In this document: piece by piece, positions 9,505 through 19,243 of the stretch
How the letters are laid out: each line of letters opens with the position of its first letter
How positions within the stretch are numbered: the stretch's first letter is position 1
DNA from: Phycisphaerales bacterium
GTDB lineage: Bacteria > Planctomycetota > Phycisphaerae > Sedimentisphaerales > Anaerobacaceae
Direction: 5' to 3'
Length of the DNA: 64,000 bases
NCBI GenBank assembly: GCA_003141315.1
Contig: PLLP01000008.1
Span: 1 to 64,000 of the forward strand
Translations under genes and position numbers: made by a program
Notes under the pieces: generated by a model
What the model was told of the DNA's origin: nothing
Seen by the model: only the letters and a program-made list of their open reading frames with translations
Database searches by the model: none

Positions 9505-11682
9505 TTATTTCAGGTTCGGCTGGCTCACCGCAGGCAGGTTCGGCTGAACAGCGTTTGAATCCAGAACCCTTGCCTTCATTTTCGCCAGAATATCGAGAAG
9601 CACATTCGCAGCAGGAGCATTTCTTATATCCTGGTTCGCCTGAGTCAAATGCGTCTCGGCATCATCCAGCTCGCCAAGACCCAGCATCTGGTAACCCAAA
9701 ATGAGCTGCAGGTCGGCATCATAAGGATACAACTTTGCCTTTTCATCGAGCAAATTTATCTGATTGGTCAAAGTATCTTCATCAGCATACAGGCCTCTCG
9801 GATAAAATACGCCTTCCTTGTCCGGCGTCACCTTCACCATTGCCGTCCGCAGCACATCAGCAGCCTCTGTATATTTTTCGAGAGCCACAAGCGACTGGCC
9901 ATAAGCGAACGGCAGAATCATATCATCCGGCGCAAGTTTCATCGCCTCGGCAAACTTGTCGGCTGCGAGATTGAAACAGTTAATCTCGAAAGCCTTTACA
10001 GCCTCTTCAAAATAGGCATCCGCCTGCGTGGCAGCATCAGGTGTGCGCTCTGCATTCTGCTGCATCCTCGCACGAACGTCGGCAAATGTTGTTTCATCCA
10101 CAGGTTGTGTCGCGGCTGATGTGGTATAGGCAGCAGCGGTTGAACCATTATCAGTACTCCCGTAATAGTTGTAAGTGTAATAGTTGCTCGTATCGCCGCT
10201 ATAAACTTCCTGCGGGACAGGGTAGTATCCATACCAGTCATAACTATGATAAGGATACCAGTAGTATCGCACGCAGCCGTAATCAGGCCACCAGCCGCCA
10301 AGACTTACGAAGAGGTATTTGTGGAAATAATATGGGTGGACATAACTGAATGACCAGGAAGGCCCGCAGCCGTAACCAACATAGAAATAATATCCAGGCC
10401 AGGTGACAACGGTGCGGAAGTTATTATGGTAATCCCTGTAGCTATGTTCAAAGCGATCCAAGTGTCTCACATTATAAGGCCGGTCGTGAAATTCGATTGT
10501 CCTCGAATGCTGTCCATTGCGGAATTCAACCCGTTTATCGATGATATTCCTATCCCTTGTAATGCTGGTTTCTCTTACATTTTTACCAAATACTCTTTCT
10601 TCTCTATGGCCCGGCACCCTTTGTTCCATCGCCCTGTCTTTTCCTGCTGAATCAGAATTATGCGTCCGCAGAAAAGAGTTTTCCGGAATTTGACTGCGGC
10701 TGTCTCTTTCATTTTTCAATGTCCTGCCGCCCACATCTTTTGCTCTTTCCAGATTCCCAGGACGGTTATCGGTATCTTTAGCTACACGCCGTTCCACCAT
10801 TTGGCCGCCTCTGTTGTCAGCAATGCCTTTGCCGGGATTGTCCTTTCCAATTACGGTGCCGATTTTTTCCATCTCGCTTTTAGGTGCAACCTTTGTATCT
10901 CCCTGATTCCTGTTGCGACCGCCGTTTCTATCCAAAGCGACTGAATCAGCCGGCCGATTTGTCCTGCCAACATTTACATTTGTATTTTTGTCATCGCCGA
11001 TGTTCCTTCCTATCCTCGACGCCCTTTCAGTATTGATTTTTACCGGGGGTTGTTCTTTGGCAACATTCGTATTTACAGAACCGGCAGGCGCAGGATTGGA
11101 TTTCACTATCTGACGTGGATTGTTCCTTTCAACCGTCACCTGCGGCTGGTTAGCAGCCCGATTCTCCCTGCCCTTGTTGGTCACTACCGTAGAAGCCGCA
11201 TTAGCATTTCTGTTTTGAGATGCAGGCGGCGACACAGTCACCGTTGGTGCATCTTGCTGCCTGCGAACCGTCACCGTAGGATTTCCAGAGACATTATGTG
11301 TTTGTGCGGGGGTGTTTTGCCGGGCAGGCTCTGCCGAACGAACATTAGATGGTTGTGATTGAACGGCAGGCCTCTGTGTTTCAGCTCTGTCAGGTGCAGT
11401 CTGCCTTGAAGCAGGAGCCTGCGCCTCAGCCCTGGCAGGAGGAGATTGCCTCGAAGGCTGGCTTTTCCGGACTTCCCCGCCTCCCTGGCCCGAAGCCGGG
11501 GCTGACCTCTGCGGCGAAGATTCCCGACTTTGAGCAGAAACGTTTCCCTGCCCCGACCTGCCCTGCTCCTGGCCGCCTCCACGACCCTGCCTCGAATCAG
11601 AATATAGTGCCGAGCAAAAGTAGAGGTTAATTATCAATGCGAGGCCGATTGTTAAATAAAGTTTGATTCTTTTGCCTAACAT
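9505..11682 (-). CDS. Secreted low-complexity, Tyr-rich protein with C-terminal TPR repeats
   Basis: 725 residues. A signal peptide or membrane anchor (about 7-27) is followed by ~330 residues rich in Gln, Arg, Ser, Pro and Asn with repeated RQ/PA motifs, probably disordered. Residues ~395-520 are extremely Tyr/Trp-rich (YYFYVGYGCGPSW, YYWYPYHSYDWYGYYP). The last ~170 residues are helical TPR-like repeats (AVKAFEINCFNLAADKFAEAM, PYDADLQLILGYQMLGLGEL). I do not recognise a named family. The position between the T2SS operon and an independent promoter suggests a cell-surface or periplasmic role, possibly as a scaffold. The start ATG has GGAGG six bases upstream, and there is a strong terminator after the gene. 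Confidence 0.8.
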   Translation of the reverse strand: MLGKRIKLYLTIGLALIINLYFCSALYSDSRQGRGGGQEQGRSGQGNVSAQSRESSPQRSAPASGQGGGEVRKSQPSRQSPPARAEAQAPASRQTAPDRAETQRPAVQSQPSNVRSAEPARQNTPAQTHNVSGNPTVTVRRQQDAPTVTVSPPASQNRNANAASTVVTNKGRENRAANQPQVTVERNNPRQIVKSNPAPAGSVNTNVAKEQPPVKINTERASRIGRNIGDDKNTNVNVGRTNRPADSVALDRNGGRNRNQGDTKVAPKSEMEKIGTVIGKDNPGKGIADNRGGQMVERRVAKDTDNRPGNLERAKDVGGRTLKNERDSRSQIPENSFLRTHNSDSAGKDRAMEQRVPGHREERVFGKNVRETSITRDRNIIDKRVEFRNGQHSRTIEFHDRPYNVRHLDRFEHSYRDYHNNFRTVVTWPGYYFYVGYGCGPSWSFSYVHPYYFHKYLFVSLGGWWPDYGCVRYYWYPYHSYDWYGYYPVPQEVYSGDTSNYYTYNYYGSTDNGSTAAAYTTSAATQPVDETTFADVRARMQQNAERTPDAATQADAYFEEAVKAFEINCFNLAADKFAEAMKLAPDDMILPFAYGQSLVALEKYTEAADVLRTAMVKVTPDKEGVFYPRGLYADEDTLTNQINLLDEKAKLYPYDADLQLILGYQMLGLGELDDAETHLTQANQDIRNAPAANVLLDILAKMKARVLDSNAVQPNLPAVSQPNLK

Positions 11683-11772: not shown

Positions 11773-11800
11773 ATCATAATTAAAGACGCTTAAAAGTCAA
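11773..11800 (-). promoter_or_regulatory. Promoter of the TPR-protein gene
   Basis: TTGACT (11795-11800, minus) is followed after 16 bp by TATGAT (11773-11778). It lies ~90 bp upstream of the ATG at 11682. The rest of the 326-bp divergent gap holds the plus-strand promoter at 11910 and otherwise AT-rich DNA with nothing recognised. Confidence 0.6.
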
Positions 11801-11909
11801 GTATTTTTTTCATAATTGTTAAGAATTTTTTGCTTTTTCGTAAAATCTATATAACATCCTGCAATACAACGACTTAAGATATATGGCTTTCAACTGATAG
11901 TGTAAAATT

Positions 11910-11938
11910 TTGACAATTTAGCTTGTTATTTTTTACAT
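11910..11938 (+). promoter_or_regulatory. Promoter of the HTH-CDPS operon
   Basis: TTGACA (11910-11915) and a weaker TTACAT (11933-11938) are 17 bp apart. They lie 70 bp before the first gene, whose ATG has AAGGGG seven bases upstream. Confidence 0.55.
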
Positions 11939-12008
11939 TGCCCCTATAATCGCCAATGTTGAGCAGCAATAATCCCGATAAAACTCGTAATAATAAGGGG
12001 ATAGACTA

Positions 12009-13163
12009 ATGGCAGAAAAAATCCGAAATCCTCTTGCACAGGCGCTCGGATTGGTTTTTCAGCACACCAGAGACAAGATGGGCGGCGTTTCATCATCTGA
12101 TATCGCCTCGCGTCTTGGCCTGGCCGCATCGCACTACCGTATGATTGAGGCTGGTTCCGCCATTTTGCAGCCATCAAGAGTCATAAAGGTAATACAAACC
12201 TTTGAAACTATTGAATATGTTCCTCTGTGCCAAATCCTCGTTGCCATACAAATTCTCGATTCAGTCAAAGATTCGGTTGATGATATGCGGACAACGTCGG
12301 CAGTCCTCGCAGAAGCTGTGCCTCCGATGTCAGGAATCTTCAAAGGACTCAGCAGACTCTGGAATACAATAGAAACAAAAGAGCCTTTTGACGTCACAAA
12401 AAAAATGATTGGCGAGGGAATTGTTAAAGAGCTTGAAACATTCCTTACCACCGAGCCTGTGCTGCTCACGGATGGGCAGCTCAATAATTTTATGACGCCG
12501 ACTTATCAATATCCCATTTCAGGTCAGCTATACAGCAAGATAGGCAACATCCTGCACGGCGTCGCCCCGTTTTATCTCGATACGATTTTGCAGCTTATTG
12601 AAAACCTGAAAGGAATTACCCCTCGCGTCACCGCTGAAGAGCTGGCCCGATGGGAAAGCAGGCACAAAAACAGAATCACCCATATAATAGGAATAATACG
12701 AAACCCTGAGATTGTATTCAACGTGGAATCCTTCGATTATGGCTTCCTGTGGGAAGAGAGCTTCCAGAAACTGCTGATTATCCACAGAGACCAGCCGAAT
12801 CTCAAGGATACATCCGTCAGGGAAAAAATTGTCCAGTCTCTCAGGAAAAAATATGAGACCGAACGCGTAAAATACGAGCATCAGATGCAGACCTTCGAAA
12901 AAACACTTACTTCGAAACTCGACGTAAAACACGCAAAGCAAAACAAGGAAAAGATAGACAAGATTCTTACCCACAGAAATACGAAAATGAACAACCTGTG
13001 GCTTTATATTATGAATAACGGCTACGTCGTGCCGTTTATCGATAACGCAGCGATGAGCGTATCAGCCGAAAACCTTTACGGCACAAGTTTAACTTATGAC
13101 GAAACCTGTGAAAAACTTGCAGATATTAAGGAATTATGCACTGATGCCGGATCCAGCATTTAA
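12009..13163 (+). CDS. HTH-domain protein, first gene of the cyclodipeptide synthase operon
   Basis: 384 residues. An XRE-like helix-turn-helix lies near residues 29-60 (SSDIASRLGLAASHYRMIEAG). The remaining ~320 residues are mainly helical with no family I recognise and a charged coiled-coil stretch at about 280-330. No membrane segment is visible. It overlaps the cyclodipeptide synthase gene by 20 bp, so the two are probably translated together. A regulator or an intracellular sensor for the operon product is the simplest inference, although the large C-terminal part could have another activity. Confidence 0.7.
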   Translation: MAEKIRNPLAQALGLVFQHTRDKMGGVSSSDIASRLGLAASHYRMIEAGSAILQPSRVIKVIQTFETIEYVPLCQILVAIQILDSVKDSVDDMRTTSAVLAEAVPPMSGIFKGLSRLWNTIETKEPFDVTKKMIGEGIVKELETFLTTEPVLLTDGQLNNFMTPTYQYPISGQLYSKIGNILHGVAPFYLDTILQLIENLKGITPRVTAEELARWESRHKNRITHIIGIIRNPEIVFNVESFDYGFLWEESFQKLLIIHRDQPNLKDTSVREKIVQSLRKKYETERVKYEHQMQTFEKTLTSKLDVKHAKQNKEKIDKILTHRNTKMNNLWLYIMNNGYVVPFIDNAAMSVSAENLYGTSLTYDETCEKLADIKELCTDAGSSI

Positions 13164-13902
13164 AAGTCCAGATTTGCCGCAGATAAGAATTGTCAAAACC
13201 ATTCCCAAAGCGACTCAGCAGCAGCTTTCCTCGTATAAACATTGTTATATGGGCATAAGCCTCGATAATCCTTCGTTTTACGGTCGGTCACTCCAGGCCC
13301 TGCTATTATGGGCAGCAGGCAATTATGAACAATGTCTTGTTATCGTCGGCGATTTCCTGCGAAGATACAACGAGCAGATATTCAGCGGCACCGCCGGCGA
13401 GGCTGCGGAAAATGCGTCACTACAGTCCGGGGAAAATTACATCGCACAGACAAGGGAAATCTTCAGCCGGTTTTCAGAACCCGCCGTCAAAATTATCAGG
13501 TGGAAAGACTGCCTCGAAAAAGAGGAATATAAAAAGGCAAAGAAAGTCCTCGATAATCTTTACGATTCGGACGAGGCCTTTCGTTCGAGCCTGCAGAAGG
13601 ACGCTTTTTCTTTTATCAACAGGCAAAAACGAAATAAACAAAATCCGAAAGTATCCATCGAGAACGCTATCGATATTTCGAGCAAATATCTTCTCGAAGA
13701 GGTGGCCGTTTTCAGCGCGCTGTCGGAAGCGGGCTGGAACGTCGAGATATATCCCGGCCCGGAACTGAACGTCCTTGTCGATATTGCAGGGGGAAGTTTC
13801 AGGGATGTGCCGGCAGGATTGAAAAAAAGGATTAACATCGAACTTCAGATAGACAAACAGCAGATAACGCAGGGAAAAAAGACAGGATATAGTAGTCAGT
13901 AA
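13144..13902 (+). CDS. tRNA-dependent cyclodipeptide synthase (CDPS)
   Basis: 252 residues from the ATG at 13144. A frame start at 13096 also exists but lacks a ribosome site. The fold matches AlbC-type CDPSs from memory. GISLDNPSF with the presumed nucleophile Ser39 is followed by helix LQALLLWA, then the strand CLVIVGDFL. Tyr182 and Glu186 in YLLEE correspond to AlbC Tyr178/Glu182, and Tyr203 in VEIYPG to Tyr202. CDPSs transfer two aminoacyl groups from charged tRNAs to the enzyme and release a diketopiperazine. The Tyr-Pro pair suggests the XYP subfamily, yet the residue three after Ser39 is Asn, as in the NYQ subfamily. The product cannot be predicted. The next gene is a symporter 35 bp on. 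Confidence 0.82.
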   Translation: MPDPAFKSPDLPQIRIVKTIPKATQQQLSSYKHCYMGISLDNPSFYGRSLQALLLWAAGNYEQCLVIVGDFLRRYNEQIFSGTAGEAAENASLQSGENYIAQTREIFSRFSEPAVKIIRWKDCLEKEEYKKAKKVLDNLYDSDEAFRSSLQKDAFSFINRQKRNKQNPKVSIENAIDISSKYLLEEVAVFSALSEAGWNVEIYPGPELNVLVDIAGGSFRDVPAGLKKRINIELQIDKQQITQGKKTGYSSQ

Positions 13903-13937
13903 AGGAATTCGGGCGACAAGTCACGAGCGACTAAATT

Positions 13938-15434
13938 ATGAGTGTAATTGTAATAGCTGCGCTTCTCACGTCATTTACCATCTGCACAGTCGTGAGCGTA
14001 TATCTCGGCATTCGCGCAAAAAGCGTTGCGGATATGCTGCCGCTTTCCGAAAAAAAAATGGCGCAGATAAAAAGTTCGGGCGAATTTTCTGCCAGCACCG
14101 TCGCTACCACGATTTCGCTCGCCACGGTGGTACTGGCATTCTTCGAGCTGGCCGACAAGTTCGGCCTGTGGCTCTTCTGGGCGGTAATTACGACTTCGGC
14201 GGGTCTGCTGCTGGTGCGGCTTTTCGCAAATAAAATCTGGACAAAAATTTCCGCTTACGACCATCGCCCGACATTAAACGAGTTTTTGGGCAGGGAATTT
14301 AACTCAACGTCCGTACGCTCCGTAAGCGCGGTCTGCACAAGCCTGGGCTTTTTAAGCGCGTTTGCCCTCGAACTGATTGTCGGGTCGGCGTTCTTCGCAG
14401 GATTAGTGCCGGGCGTTAAACCTTTCACAGCGTTGGTCATCCTGTCTCTTGCTGTTTTCCTCTATACAGCCGTTGGCGGTTTCCGGGCGGTAATTATTTC
14501 CGACAGAATACAAATGTTCACAATCTGGATGTTTCTTTTCTTTTTGTCTGTCTTTTACGCCTGTTATGTAATGCAAAATGGCGGGTGGGCAAAGGGAATT
14601 GAAAATATACCGCAGGGCGTCTTAAATCTTTCTGGCAGAGAAGGCCTTTCCTCGTTCCTGGCGGGCATATTCGTTATGAACGTGCCAACGTATCTTTCGG
14701 ATATCGGCATCTGGCAGAGAATCGCAGGCGCGCAGCACTCATCCATTGTCCTCAAAGGCCTGCTGCGAAGCGCACTGGGGGCAGCCATAAGCTGGTCGCT
14801 GATTATTCTGCTTGCCTGTTTCGCGTTTATGTTAATCAAAACAGACCAGACTACCAACCCGCTGATTCTCGTCATACAAACGGTCAGCAGCAGTAAAAGC
14901 TTCTTTGCCGTTCTCGTGCTTTTTTTCATTACCCTCGGACTCTACGGCGCGATGCTTTCAACGGCTTCGACACAGCTGATAGCCGTTTCGCATACCATTT
15001 ATGAAGATATTCTTTCGAGTATGAGAAATCGCTCTCTCAAAGAACGGCTGGTTTTAGCAAAGGAGCTTTACATATCGAGATTGATTCTGGTTGTTTCCGC
15101 TATTGCGTCCATCGCGGTCGTTTATTACCTGTGGCGAAGAGGATTGTCGATAGCAGACCTCGTTTTTACGATATACGGCGCACAGGTCGGGCTTTGTCCT
15201 CTGGTGATTGCCGCCCTGCTGCTGAAACCCGGCCAGCTTGCCCGATTATCCGGCTGGGCTGTCGCTGCGGTATCGGTCGGCTTCCTGACCGGCTGGTCGA
15301 GCGCAATTTATGGAAACTTTTTCGGAACGGAAAGCCTGGTCTATTCGTCTCCCGTCAGCAGCCTGTTTGTTTCGTCAGTCATATTGCTGTCGGGTCTGAT
15401 TTTTACATCGAAAAAATCAAAGGGTGAAAAATGA
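13938..15434 (+). CDS. Sodium:solute symporter (SSS) family transporter
   Basis: 498 residues with about 13 hydrophobic segments and the SSS signature region VGGFRAVIISDRIQMF near residues 175-190. The substrate cannot be inferred from sequence. The family normally imports sugars, amino acids or other solutes with Na+. Placement directly after the CDPS gene suggests uptake or exchange of the diketopiperazine or its precursor amino acids (inference). Its last codons overlap the next gene (ATGA). Confidence 0.85.
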   Translation: MSVIVIAALLTSFTICTVVSVYLGIRAKSVADMLPLSEKKMAQIKSSGEFSASTVATTISLATVVLAFFELADKFGLWLFWAVITTSAGLLLVRLFANKIWTKISAYDHRPTLNEFLGREFNSTSVRSVSAVCTSLGFLSAFALELIVGSAFFAGLVPGVKPFTALVILSLAVFLYTAVGGFRAVIISDRIQMFTIWMFLFFLSVFYACYVMQNGGWAKGIENIPQGVLNLSGREGLSSFLAGIFVMNVPTYLSDIGIWQRIAGAQHSSIVLKGLLRSALGAAISWSLIILLACFAFMLIKTDQTTNPLILVIQTVSSSKSFFAVLVLFFITLGLYGAMLSTASTQLIAVSHTIYEDILSSMRNRSLKERLVLAKELYISRLILVVSAIASIAVVYYLWRRGLSIADLVFTIYGAQVGLCPLVIAALLLKPGQLARLSGWAVAAVSVGFLTGWSSAIYGNFFGTESLVYSSPVSSLFVSSVILLSGLIFTSKKSKGEK

Positions 15435-15895
15435 ACTGGGTATTGATAAAGGCCGTTCATAAAGCCAGGAAAAAAGGTCTCCTTCATCTCAAGCGAGCCG
15501 ATAAGCCTTTGCAATTCGTTTGTCTTGCGGAAAAATGCGGCCTCTGCTGCAAACTGCTGGGTTCGCCCGTAGTTTCCGAAAAAGAGGCGGAGAAAATCGA
15601 CCCAAACCATATCTTAAAAAACAAATACGGCTTATTCATCAAATCAAATGACTGCACCTGTTCTGTCCTCAAAGACAATCTCTGTTCTATTTATTCTGTA
15701 AGGCCGAGAGGCTGCCGGGAATACCCGTGGTATAACATTGACGGCCGGTTGTTTTACGATTCGGGCTGTCCCGGCTTTACCGCACAAGGCGACAACAGGC
15801 CGGATGTAAATACGATTCAGCCCTTTGAAAATTTCTTCCCGGGGTCATCGAAATTTTTTGTCTCGCTTATAAAAAAAATCTGCCTGAAAAAATAA
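15431..15895 (+). CDS. YkgJ-type cysteine-cluster protein
   Basis: 154 residues with the CxxCC cluster near the start (EKCGLCCKLLG, about residues 36-46) and a second set of Cys (NDCTCSVLKDNLCSIYSVRP, GCREYPW, SGCPGF). This is the YkgJ/UPF0153 pattern, thought to bind zinc or an iron-sulfur cluster. It overlaps the symporter gene by 4 bp and is therefore the last member of the HTH-CDPS-SSS unit. Function unknown; a tailoring role on the cyclodipeptide is possible but has no direct evidence. Confidence 0.75.
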   Translation: MNWVLIKAVHKARKKGLLHLKRADKPLQFVCLAEKCGLCCKLLGSPVVSEKEAEKIDPNHILKNKYGLFIKSNDCTCSVLKDNLCSIYSVRPRGCREYPWYNIDGRLFYDSGCPGFTAQGDNRPDVNTIQPFENFFPGSSKFFVSLIKKICLKK

Positions 15896-15993: not shown

Positions 15994-16083
15994 ATGTGTA
16001 ATACCTGCGGCTGCCGAAGCGGAAAAAAAACAGTGAAATCGAAGGCAAAATCCTCGAAGAGCAAAAAATCCTCAAAGAAATAA
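15994..16083 (+). CDS. Small Cys/Lys-rich protein with a CxxCGC N-terminus
   Basis: This 29-codon ORF starts MCNTCGCRSGKK and ends in a Lys/Ser tail (KSSKSKKSSKK). AAGGG lies about eight bases before the ATG and a perfect promoter lies further upstream. The CxxCGC start resembles the nickel-binding N-terminus of HypB (MCTxCGC), but there is no GTPase domain. It may bind a metal or nucleic acid. The isolated position and strong promoter argue that it is real; it could also be a small RNA with a chance ORF. Confidence 0.55.
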   Translation: MCNTCGCRSGKKTVKSKAKSSKSKKSSKK

Positions 16084-16126: not shown

Positions 16127-16329
16127 AGACCAACGTTCTTAATCAGATTGTTTAGTCACAGGGGGATTGTTCTTTCCTCATGAAGGCGCATCCCCTCAAA
16201 AAATGCCGCCTGCCCACTTTTGCCGTTTATGCCGAAGCGAATAATTATAGAACCTTGCGGAAATCCGCAAAACCGTTTATTATTTTATTCATAAGATATC
16301 GAAAAGCTGAAAATATACAGGGAAAAGAT

Positions 16330-17694
16330 ATGGCTGAAAAATTTGACATTGTAGTAATAGGCGGCGGGCCGGGCGGCGCAAGGGCAGCAAGAAGATGCGC
16401 ACAGAAAGGCAAAAAAGTCGCCCTGATTGAAAAAGAATATATCGGCGGGGTCTGCCTCAACTGGGGATGCATCCCGACAAAGACTCTTCTTGCTTCGGCA
16501 CATACCCTTATTAAAGCCAAAGAGGCCGCCGAGATGGGCATCATAATTGAATCCGCAAAACCCGACTGGGAAAAAATTCAGCAGAGAACAAAAAAAATAG
16601 TCGAAACTTTCCGCAGCGGAATGAGCTTTACAATGAAGAACAGCAAGGTAGCCGTCTTTCAGGGTAAGGCATCTGTCCTTTCGCCGAAATTAGTGCAGGT
16701 CGAGACAGAAACAGGACGCACGGAACTGCAAACCGAAAAACTGATTATCGCAACCGGCTCCGAACCGTCGCAGATACCGGCGATGCCATTCGACGGACGG
16801 GCAATCATCAGCAGCACAGATGCGCTTTTCCTGCCGCAAATTCCGAAATCAATGGCCGTCATAGGCGGCGGATTTATCGGCTGTGAAATCGGCTGCCTGT
16901 ATGCCGCTCTCGGATGCAGCGTCACCATAATCGAAGCGCTCGACAAAATCCTGCAGCGGGAAGATGAGTGGGTCAGTAAATTGCTTATAAGAGAATTCAA
17001 AAAATTAAACATCAATGTATTAACAGGCAGGAAAGTCGTATCCGCGGAAAAACAAAATGGCACTGCAAAAATAAACCTCGAAGATGGACAAACAATCGAG
17101 GCTGAAAAAATCCTCGTCGCCGTGGGCAGGAAACCATACTGCGATAAACAAATCACCGGTGCATTAGGACTCGAAATGAACCGTTCGGCAATCAGGGTCA
17201 ATGATAAATTCGAGACAAACGTTTCGGGCGTCTTTGCGGTTGGCGATTGTATCGGCACAACTTTCCTCGCTCATGGCGCAACGACAGAAGCTGAAGTCGC
17301 AGCGGCAAACGCTGCCGGCGGAAATGAAAAAATGTCAGATTACGATTTGATACCGCGGGCAATTTTCACATTCCCCGAGGTCGCAGGCGTCGGTAAAACC
17401 GAGCAGCAGTGCAAGGCTGAAGGATTGGACATCGCCGTCGGCAAGGCATTTTTCAGGGCGGACGGCAGAAGCGTCGCCCAAAACGAGCCTGCCGGCGAGA
17501 TAAGGGCCATCCGCAGCAAGACCACAAATAAAATCGTCGGCATAACTATGGTCGGCGGACGCGTCACGGAATTTGCTGCGCTGGCGCGAACGCTTATCGG
17601 AACGCAGGAAAAAATCGGCAGTATCTGTTTTCCGCACCCCACCGTTTCCGAAGTCGTGGGCGAAGCGGTCGAAAACGCATTCAGTGCAAAATAG
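16330..17694 (+). CDS. lpd: Dihydrolipoamide dehydrogenase
   Basis: 454 residues from the ATG at 16330, which has an AGGGA-like ribosome site and begins the FAD motif (FDIVVIGGGPGGARAA). An upstream in-frame ATG at 16180 would add 50 unrelated residues. The redox disulfide motif GGVCLNWGCIPTK, the NAD-binding GGGFIGCEIGC, the FAD motif GVFAVGDC and the C-terminal His-Glu region (FPHPTVSEVVGEA) are all present. It reoxidises lipoamide in pyruvate/2-oxoacid dehydrogenase or glycine cleavage complexes. It is directly followed by lipB and lipA, so the operon couples lipoyl formation to lipoamide turnover. Confidence 0.93.
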   Translation: MAEKFDIVVIGGGPGGARAARRCAQKGKKVALIEKEYIGGVCLNWGCIPTKTLLASAHTLIKAKEAAEMGIIIESAKPDWEKIQQRTKKIVETFRSGMSFTMKNSKVAVFQGKASVLSPKLVQVETETGRTELQTEKLIIATGSEPSQIPAMPFDGRAIISSTDALFLPQIPKSMAVIGGGFIGCEIGCLYAALGCSVTIIEALDKILQREDEWVSKLLIREFKKLNINVLTGRKVVSAEKQNGTAKINLEDGQTIEAEKILVAVGRKPYCDKQITGALGLEMNRSAIRVNDKFETNVSGVFAVGDCIGTTFLAHGATTEAEVAAANAAGGNEKMSDYDLIPRAIFTFPEVAGVGKTEQQCKAEGLDIAVGKAFFRADGRSVAQNEPAGEIRAIRSKTTNKIVGITMVGGRVTEFAALARTLIGTQEKIGSICFPHPTVSEVVGEAVENAFSAK

Positions 17695-17706
17695 GAAAAT
17701 CCCGCC

Positions 17707-18366
17707 GTGCCGGCAATAACAAAAAACATACCGTTGCAAATAATCGATTGCGGCCTTGCCGATTACAAAGAAATTCTGGGTTTGCAGCTGAAACTCCAGG
17801 AGCAAAGACGCAGCGGCCAAATCCGCGATACTGTTTTAATTGTCGAACATCTGCCTGTTATCACGCTCGGCGCACGCAAACCTGCTAACAGGTTCACTGC
17901 GAATGAGGCGATGATAAAGACTAAAAATATCGACATTATCCAGACCCGGCGAGGCGGAGGCATTACCGCTCACAACCCGGGACAGCTTGTCTTTTACCCG
18001 ATACTTAATCTTTTTAAACTTCACCTCGGCATCACGGAATACATCGGCAGGCTCGAACAAATCGGCAGAACGCTCCTCGCACAAACCGGCGTAAAAAGCG
18101 AAAGCAGAAAGGGTTACCCGGGTTTGTGGGTCGGCGAAAAAAAAATCGCATCTATCGGCGTTCGCGTTTCAAAAGGCATCACCTGCCACGGTATGGCAAT
18201 CAACATCAATAATGATTTGAGTATTTTTGATTTATTTGTCCCCTGCGGTCTAAGCGGCGTAAAAATTACAAGCGTTTCCAATGAGACCTCAACAGAATAC
18301 CCGATTGCCTCTGTAAAACAAAAATTGTCGCAGATTTTGAAAGAATATTTTATCGAAAATGAATAA
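17707..18366 (+). CDS. lipB: Octanoyl-[ACP]:protein transferase LipB
   Basis: 219 residues, GTG start at 17707. It moves the octanoyl group from acyl carrier protein to lipoyl domains. It has the signature RRGGGITAHNPGQLVFYPI, the Lys of GEKKIASIGVRV and the catalytic Cys in GITCHGMAINI. It lies 12 bp after lpd and overlaps lipA by 8 bp. Confidence 0.93.
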   Translation: MPAITKNIPLQIIDCGLADYKEILGLQLKLQEQRRSGQIRDTVLIVEHLPVITLGARKPANRFTANEAMIKTKNIDIIQTRRGGGITAHNPGQLVFYPILNLFKLHLGITEYIGRLEQIGRTLLAQTGVKSESRKGYPGLWVGEKKIASIGVRVSKGITCHGMAININNDLSIFDLFVPCGLSGVKITSVSNETSTEYPIASVKQKLSQILKEYFIENE

Positions 18367-19243
18367 CGAGATACGGAATACGGGCAGTGAGCGACGAAAC
18401 TTACCGGACTGGCTTAAAAGACCACTGCCCGCGGGTCATAAATTTTCACACACGCAAACCGTTCTTTCCTCGCTCGGCATTCAAACAATATGCACAAACG
18501 CAAATTGTCCCAACAGGGGCGAATGCTGGGACAGGGGAACCGCAACGGTGCTGATTCTCGGCAAAACCTGCACGCGGGGCTGTAAATTCTGCTCGGTCGC
18601 AAAAGGAAAACCGCAGCCGCCCGACCCGGATGAGCCGGCGAAACTCGCGCAAATGACAAAACAAATGAACCTGAAATATTTAGTGATTACAAGCGTGACC
18701 CGCGATGACCTGCCTGACGGCGGCGCTTCGCATTACCGGGACTGCATCAATGCGGTAAGGAAAGAATTGCCATTCGTGGAATTCGAGATTCTGACTCCGG
18801 ATTTCCGGCATTGCCAGAAACCGGCAATCGAAATACTAACCGATGCGCTGCCCTTCGTTTTTGCACACAACATCGAGACCGTGCCTTCTTTCTACCCGAT
18901 TGCCAGGACAGGTGCGGATTATCAGCTTTCGCTGAACCTGCTGAAAATGGCAAAAGAGCATTATCGCACCATTCAGACAAAATCGTCCATTATGCTCGGA
19001 CTGGGCGAGACCGACAGCGAAGTGAAACAGGTCTTATATGACTTGCGAAATGCCGGCTGCGACAGAATCACGATTGGCCAATACCTCAAACCATCAAAGG
19101 ATTGCCTCGAAGTAGCCGAATTCGTAAAACCAGAAAAATTCGAATTCTGGAAACAGAAAGCCGTCGAAATCGGCTTTAAGTGGGTAATGTCTTCCCCTTT
19201 TACACGAAGCTCATATTTCGCAGAAAACAAATATACAGATTAA
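18359..19243 (+). CDS. lipA: Lipoyl synthase LipA
   Basis: 294 residues, radical SAM enzyme that inserts two sulfurs into protein-bound octanoyl groups. It carries both clusters: the auxiliary one, CX4CX5C (CTNANCPNRGEC), and the SAM cluster, CX3CX2C (CTRGCKFC). The C-terminal RSSYFAE motif (serine ligand of the auxiliary cluster) is present. It is the last gene of lpd-lipB-lipA. The 218-bp gap after it contains a short TTCTGGG tandem repeat (around 19279-19301) and the promoter of the next gene. Confidence 0.95.
   Translation: MNNEIRNTGSERRNLPDWLKRPLPAGHKFSHTQTVLSSLGIQTICTNANCPNRGECWDRGTATVLILGKTCTRGCKFCSVAKGKPQPPDPDEPAKLAQMTKQMNLKYLVITSVTRDDLPDGGASHYRDCINAVRKELPFVEFEILTPDFRHCQKPAIEILTDALPFVFAHNIETVPSFYPIARTGADYQLSLNLLKMAKEHYRTIQTKSSIMLGLGETDSEVKQVLYDLRNAGCDRITIGQYLKPSKDCLEVAEFVKPEKFEFWKQKAVEIGFKWVMSSPFTRSSYFAENKYTD

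Follow-up and report, generated by a model that had tools for sequence, protein, structure and literature searches.

Organization of the locus

To characterize a candidate cyclodipeptide pathway in a planctomycete, we analyzed a 64,000-nucleotide stretch (hereafter, the window) from the Phycisphaerales bacterium assembly GCA_003141315.1, corresponding to positions 1 to 64,000 of contig PLLP01000008.1. The window contains a block of four plus-strand genes centered on a cyclodipeptide synthase (CDPS). The first gene (12009-13163) encodes a 384-residue protein with a putative XRE-type N-terminal helix-turn-helix (HTH) followed by a conserved C-terminal part of about 300 residues, and we propose it as a dedicated regulator. 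It is followed by the CDPS gene (13144-13902, 252 residues), a gene for a sodium:solute symporter (SSS, PF00474; 13938-15434, 498 residues) and a gene for a YkgJ-type protein of the PF03692 family (15431-15895, 154 residues), a proposed iron-sulfur (Fe-S) partner. The HTH and CDPS genes overlap by 20 bp, as they overlap or abut in all loci examined; the CDPS and SSS genes are separated by 35 bp, and the SSS and YkgJ genes overlap by 4 bp (ATGA). An earlier, sequence-only reading of this DNA had described a four-gene unit, and its gene coordinates and overlaps proved correct when the sequence was re-read. The unit is real, but that reading overlooked a divergent fifth gene, a conserved promoter box and fusions between the symporter and the YkgJ-type protein.

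The cyclodipeptide synthase

By its sequence, the product of 13144-13902 is a genuine CDPS with intact catalytic residues. It matches both family profiles significantly, scoring 45.2 bits with PF16715 (E 1.2e-11, against a cut-off of 27) and 81.2 bits with TIGR04539 (E 7.4e-23, against a cut-off of 45), and its best matches among solved structures are CDPSs, which together with the complete set of catalytic residues bears out the identification made in the sequence-only reading. The closest solved relative is 9j61, with E 4.9e-21 (4.9e-34 when the family profile is used); the XYP enzymes 5ocd, 5mlq and 5mlp come next, while AlbC is a much weaker match (E 1.2e-8). Across 12 orthologues, the residues G37-I38-S39, N42, D70, Y182-x2-E185-E186 and Y203-P204 are invariant, and S39, Y182, E186 and Y203 correspond to the AlbC catalytic residues S37, Y178, E182 and Y202. 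A catalytic role has been described for the CDPS aspartate (PMC7613923), which is D70 here.

The XYP subfamily is defined by P203 and admits any residue at position 40 (PMC13062777, PMC7613923). The enzyme belongs to this subfamily, as the Y203-P204 pair is invariant in the 12 orthologues and the profile is nearer to the XYP structures than to AlbC. It falls outside the NYH subfamily (N40, Y202, H203): N42 and Y203 are present, but the histidine is replaced by proline in 12/12 sequences. The sequence-only reading had interpreted this signature as a mixture of subfamily traits, a claim that is weak because XYP formally accepts any residue as its X; for the same reason N-Y-P provides no evidence of a new subfamily, and PDB 9j61 likewise has the N...Y-P arrangement.

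Substrate-pocket positions (n = 15) were taken from PMC5816076 and mapped through an AlbC reference sequence confirmed against PDB 3oqv; as MAFFT misplaced the AlbC C-terminal strand, positions 200-207 were aligned by hand, anchored on Y202/Y203. Thirteen of the 15 pocket positions are invariant, whereas this holds for 46 of all 226 columns (hypergeometric p = 1.7e-8). The pocket motifs, in AlbC positions, are YG[IV]GWVFE for P1 and D[SA]FRGEL for P2, and an invariant glutamate occupies the P1 position that corresponds to residue 200 of AlbC. Given that these pockets are nearly invariant although the CDPSs from other copies of the block are only 43-53% identical to the window's enzyme, one product is probably made by these CDPSs in all carriers.

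The symporter and its cysteine-rich partner

The SSS protein matches PF00474 with 35.9 bits (cut-off 22.8). Among the TIGRFAM models, the panF-like TIGR00813 scored under its cut-off, and the equivalog cut-offs of PanF and PutP were not reached. The YkgJ-type protein matches PF03692 with 37.7 bits (cut-off 23) and has the invariant cysteines C31-x4-C36-x2-C39-C40 together with C77, C85, C95 and C113. A search of the structure database found no solved structure matching this family.

In three genomes (G029, G048 and G523; fusion loci L008/L017, L010/L021 and L074), the SSS and YkgJ genes form one open frame of about 650 codons with no intervening stop, and these carriers fall in one clade together with L024, a locus whose end is cut off. 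At the level of gene structure, the fusions are direct evidence that the symporter and the cysteine protein work together. The SSS protein PutP ends inside the cell, and if the symporter C-terminus lies inside as in PutP, the fused cysteine domain would be cytoplasmic. A precedent for its chemistry comes from FliB, in which a CX4CX3CC motif holds the [4Fe-4S] cluster needed for methyl transfer dependent on S-adenosylmethionine (SAM), and which has eight conserved cysteines (PMC8598068). Because this PF03692-like motif holds a catalytic cluster, the YkgJ-type protein is a plausible candidate for tailoring the product, and by this analogy our best guess is an Fe-S tailoring or redox role.

The proposed regulator and the promoter box

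The HTH protein is the most conserved of the block (56-65% identity), and its full-length orthologues are 56-63% identical. The window's copy matches HTH_3 with 18.5 bits, under the Pfam cut-off of 23, and 13 of 15 orthologues match the same family (best E 3.7e-6); these repeated matches point weakly to a DNA-binding protein. An AlphaFold2 model of the C-terminal domain reached a predicted TM-score of 0.81, and a structure search of the PDB with this model gave no confident match. Phospholipase-D-like folds recurred among the hits, but with a best E of 0.016, TM of about 0.4 and peroxiredoxins mixed in, and the domain has no invariant histidine to fit the HxK motif of such folds; we rejected the assignment, and treat the modeled resemblance as only a lead.

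Upstream of the operon lies a conserved 30-bp promoter box on the plus strand, TTTTGACAATTTAGCTTGTTATTTTTTACA (11908-11937), which covers the -35 region and is a candidate operator. The candidate -35 element TTGTTA (11923-11928, plus strand) is separated by a 16-bp spacer from the -10 element TATAAT (11945-11950, plus strand), which begins 7 bp past the box and is matched by a similar hexamer at the corresponding position of the aligned promoters. The box is present in 17/17 HTH promoters with the consensus TTTTGACA-n2-TT-n-GYTTG...TTTTTRCA, ending about 7-9 bp ahead of a TATAAT-like -10 element. In leave-one-out tests, the matrix scored the box above all 200 shuffles in 16 of the 17 promoters. 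The window's genome has a single site at up to 3 mismatches, and the expected count in the window, from shuffled windows, is 0. A box placed over the -35 region makes autoregulation through the HTH protein a straightforward inference.

Distribution and inheritance of the block

A Pfam search for CDPS among 99 relatives identified four further genomes with a good match, all with the identical four-gene order. Similarly, an HTH profile run against 84,980 species genomes found 14 loci, in planctomycete metagenome-assembled genomes (MAGs) apart from one archaeal-labelled contig, and in all 14 the HTH-CDPS-SSS-YkgJ order continues up to the contig limits. Single-sequence CDPS scans of the genome and viral collections gave no matches, where the HTH profile succeeded. 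Within the order Sedimentisphaerales (161 genomes), the HTH gene occurs in 17 genomes from 14 genera and two families, accompanied by CDPS in 16, SSS in 16 and YkgJ in 15 of them, and every case of a missing gene falls at a contig end. The sequence-only reading had named a gene order restricted to this genome as grounds for refutation, and the order proved not to be so confined. The SSS clade is exclusive to the cassette, being present in 16/161 genomes of the order, each of which carries it. Outside the order, among 392 genomes evenly sampled across the phylum, no other believable CDPS or HTH was found. Weak CDPS matches in four genomes (G041, G051, G283 and G365) were rejected, as their scores were marginal, no full-length CDPS-like open reading frame (ORF) was present, and a local search with the cassette CDPS profile gave nothing above noise; those in G041 and G051 also contain stop codons.

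The pairwise distances of the four cassette proteins correlate (r 0.75-0.87) and their main clades are congruent, which indicates that the block is inherited together. Ratios of dN/dS between close pairs (0.03-0.23) show purifying selection. The flanks differ among loci: the others share neither the lipoate genes downstream of the window's block nor the pilB-type gene upstream of it. The clade of symporter-YkgJ fusions (L017, L021, L024 and L074) contains members of two of the order's families, a pattern suggesting that the block has been transferred between lineages.

Transfer on plasmids was rejected, since in a plasmid search the YkgJ-type protein had no match and CDPS gave only four near-identical matches at 23% identity, on plasmids of sponge symbionts. 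These are the 33-kb plasmids MK748462-MK748465 of Candidatus Endohaliclona renieramycinifaciens, whose hypothetical protein aligns with the CDPS over 70% (E 2e-6) and, on this similarity, is possibly an unannotated CDPS. The archaeal-labelled contig (L022, JAHKLV010000137.1) is 3.1 kb long and belongs to a MAG titled Methanofastidiosia archaeon; its HTH-CDPS-SSS genes are 96-98% identical in protein to those of the planctomycete locus L020, and it is thus probably a contamination or binning error.

The divergent gene and neighboring features

A divergent gene on the minus strand (9505-11682) lies upstream of the cassette in every locus long enough to show the region. It encodes a low-complexity, Tyr/His-rich protein with a C-terminal part resembling tetratricopeptide repeats. 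Its candidate promoter (11773-11800, minus strand) consists of TTGACT (11800-11795), a 16-bp spacer and TATGAT (11778-11773), and includes a GTCAA block kept in the aligned loci. The tree of the divergent gene follows the cassette clades, indicating that both travel together. The gene is nevertheless not exclusive to the cassette, as it is present in 111/161 genomes of the order, including most genomes without the cassette, where other genes adjoin it. In several of these cassette-free genomes, genes for a beta-propeller-like protein and for a small glycine-zipper-like protein come after it.

Just past the operon, a 29-codon ORF (15994-16083, plus strand) encodes MCNTCGCRSGKKTVKSKAKSSKSKKSSKK, a peptide that combines a CxxCGC motif with a tail of lysine and serine; none of the other loci sampled has a similar small ORF. 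Genes for dihydrolipoamide dehydrogenase, LipB and LipA follow (16180-19243, plus strand), in the window's genome only and outside the conserved block. Searches of the region against Rfam and of defence systems returned no element and no match, respectively.

Proposed function and alternative explanations

The conservation of the cassette points to an undescribed small-molecule pathway. We favor, with a probability of roughly 0.55, a self-contained and autoregulated operon for cyclodipeptide synthesis and transport that includes an Fe-S partner and is inherited as a block within this one planctomycete order. Under this proposal, the CDPS would join the residues of two specific aminoacyl-tRNAs into one particular cyclodipeptide, and the YkgJ-type protein would hold a [4Fe-4S] cluster at the symporter's cytoplasmic face, where it could handle a bound metal or modify the cyclodipeptide, the best precedent for the latter being SAM-dependent chemistry like that of FliB. 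The SSS protein would move the product, most likely inward, and the HTH protein would bind the box over its own -35 element, tuning transcription of the operon to the intracellular product level and perhaps also adjusting the divergent surface-type gene. The least certain parts are what the product is, which way transport runs, what chemistry the cysteine protein performs and which ligand the regulator binds. That a cyclodipeptide is sensed and moved by the unit, as the sequence-only reading had it, is likewise a hypothesis.

Several observations weigh against this proposal. SSS proteins are normally importers, usually of small nutrients, so the substrate of the symporter could be a precursor amino acid instead of the cyclodipeptide. 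FliB is larger than the 154-residue YkgJ-type protein, and its motif is CX4CX3CC versus CX4CX2CC here. The regulator's HTH scores under the Pfam cut-off in the window's copy, and its C-terminal domain has no assigned fold, which leaves ligand sensing as an inference. Finally, as the divergent gene is present in so many genomes of the order, positional inheritance may account for its association with the cassette. A more elaborate version, which we put forward only speculatively, is a cyclodipeptide self-sensing circuit, in which the product would be re-imported by the sodium symporter and modified or read by the cytoplasmic Fe-S domain, and the HTH regulator would respond to it through a new ligand-binding domain, at a single operator serving both the operon and the divergent surface-protein gene.

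The strongest alternative, though we consider it less probable, is ordinary biosynthesis with no sensing of the product: the CDPS would supply a scaffold, the YkgJ-type protein would tailor it (for example by methylation), the SSS protein would provide precursors or export the product, and the HTH protein would be an autorepressor responding to a general signal. Tailoring genes commonly adjoin CDPSs (PMC5767969, PMC2922099), FliB shows that a related cysteine motif can carry methyl-transfer chemistry, and the box overlaps the -35 element of the operon itself. However, the regulator is the block's most conserved protein and extends some 300 residues past its HTH, beyond the needs of a plain repressor, and the YkgJ-type protein is far smaller than FliB.

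A role in metal handling is doubtful. In this scenario, the cyclodipeptide or a modified form would chelate a metal, the symporter would recover the complex, the fused cysteine domain would take the metal in the cytoplasm, and the HTH protein would sense the metal or the complex. Pulcherriminic acid is a metal chelator in Bacillus. Moreover, PF03692 is a domain of the zinc- or iron-chelating type with eight invariant cysteines here, it is fused to the symporter in three genomes, and in Burkholderia a siderophore role linked to a CDPS has been suggested (PMC5767969). Against this, the cassette has no P450 or other oxygenase for making a hydroxamate, and the block lacks a TonB receptor or ATP-binding cassette (ABC) importer. 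Nor are SSS proteins known to act as metallophore carriers.

It is very unlikely that the CDPS fold serves as a sensor of aminoacyl-tRNA status with the HTH protein as its output: the overlapping or abutting genes in every locus examined would fit such a pairing, but the catalytic residues are invariant throughout, the nucleophilic serine among them, and the pockets are strongly constrained, whereas a pure sensor could dispense with the nucleophile and Y203. Least probable of all is adjacency by chance or regional shared ancestry with no common function since, although carriers restricted to one bacterial order should share some synteny, the block recurs in 17 genomes from 14 genera whose flanks otherwise differ, the presence and absence of all four genes coincide, and SSS-YkgJ fusions occur.

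If the favored proposal is true, the cassette offers a compact, heterologously expressible system for asking whether cyclodipeptides act as metal ligands or as signals, and PF03692, a poorly understood domain, gains a defined partner and a candidate substrate.

Comparison with known systems

As far as tested, the CDPS is an enzyme of a known family within an undescribed gene set. No description of the HTH-CDPS-SSS-YkgJ gene set was found in the literature searched, in agreement with the sequence-only reading. With the XYP enzymes Nbra-CDPS (5mlq), Fdum-CDPS (5ocd), Rgry-CDPS (5mlp) and PDB 9j61, the window's CDPS shares the fold family, the catalytic Ser/Tyr/Glu/Tyr and the Y-P pair; it differs in its P1 and P2 pocket motifs and in combining N at position 40 with P203, as XYP allows, and its sequence is only distantly similar to theirs. 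Work on CDPS clusters has concentrated on Actinobacteria, Firmicutes and Proteobacteria, and the adjoining transporters were described as efflux pumps. The gene set reported here is a conserved, fixed one from Planctomycetota, in which the symporter and an iron-sulfur-type protein are physically fused in some genomes, and it includes a proposed dedicated regulator with one candidate operator. Like the cassette, the albonoursin, pulcherriminic acid, mycocyclosin and nocazine clusters place a CDPS beside regulator, transporter or tailoring genes. Those clusters use AlbA-type oxidoreductases, P450s or Rossmann methyltransferases together with efflux, most often by the major facilitator superfamily (MFS) (PMC5767969), whereas the cassette lacks all of these and has SSS and PF03692 proteins instead. 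The functions catalogued around CDPSs in published surveys are P450s, AlbA-type oxidoreductases, methyltransferases, 2-oxoglutarate oxygenases and MFS-type efflux (PMC5767969, PMC2922099), and no cognate oxidoreductase or P450 stands beside the CDPS within the conserved block at any locus examined. The YkgJ-type protein has in common with FliB-type PF03692 Fe-S methyltransferases the motif C-x4-C-x2/3-C-C and eight conserved cysteines (PMC8598068), but FliB is larger, methylates flagellin and has no transporter link, while the protein here is a stand-alone polypeptide of 154 residues or a C-terminal fusion to the symporter. Similarly, the symporter belongs to the same PF00474 family as PanF and PutP, the next-scoring models, yet it forms a clade found only with the CDPS and is sometimes fused to PF03692.

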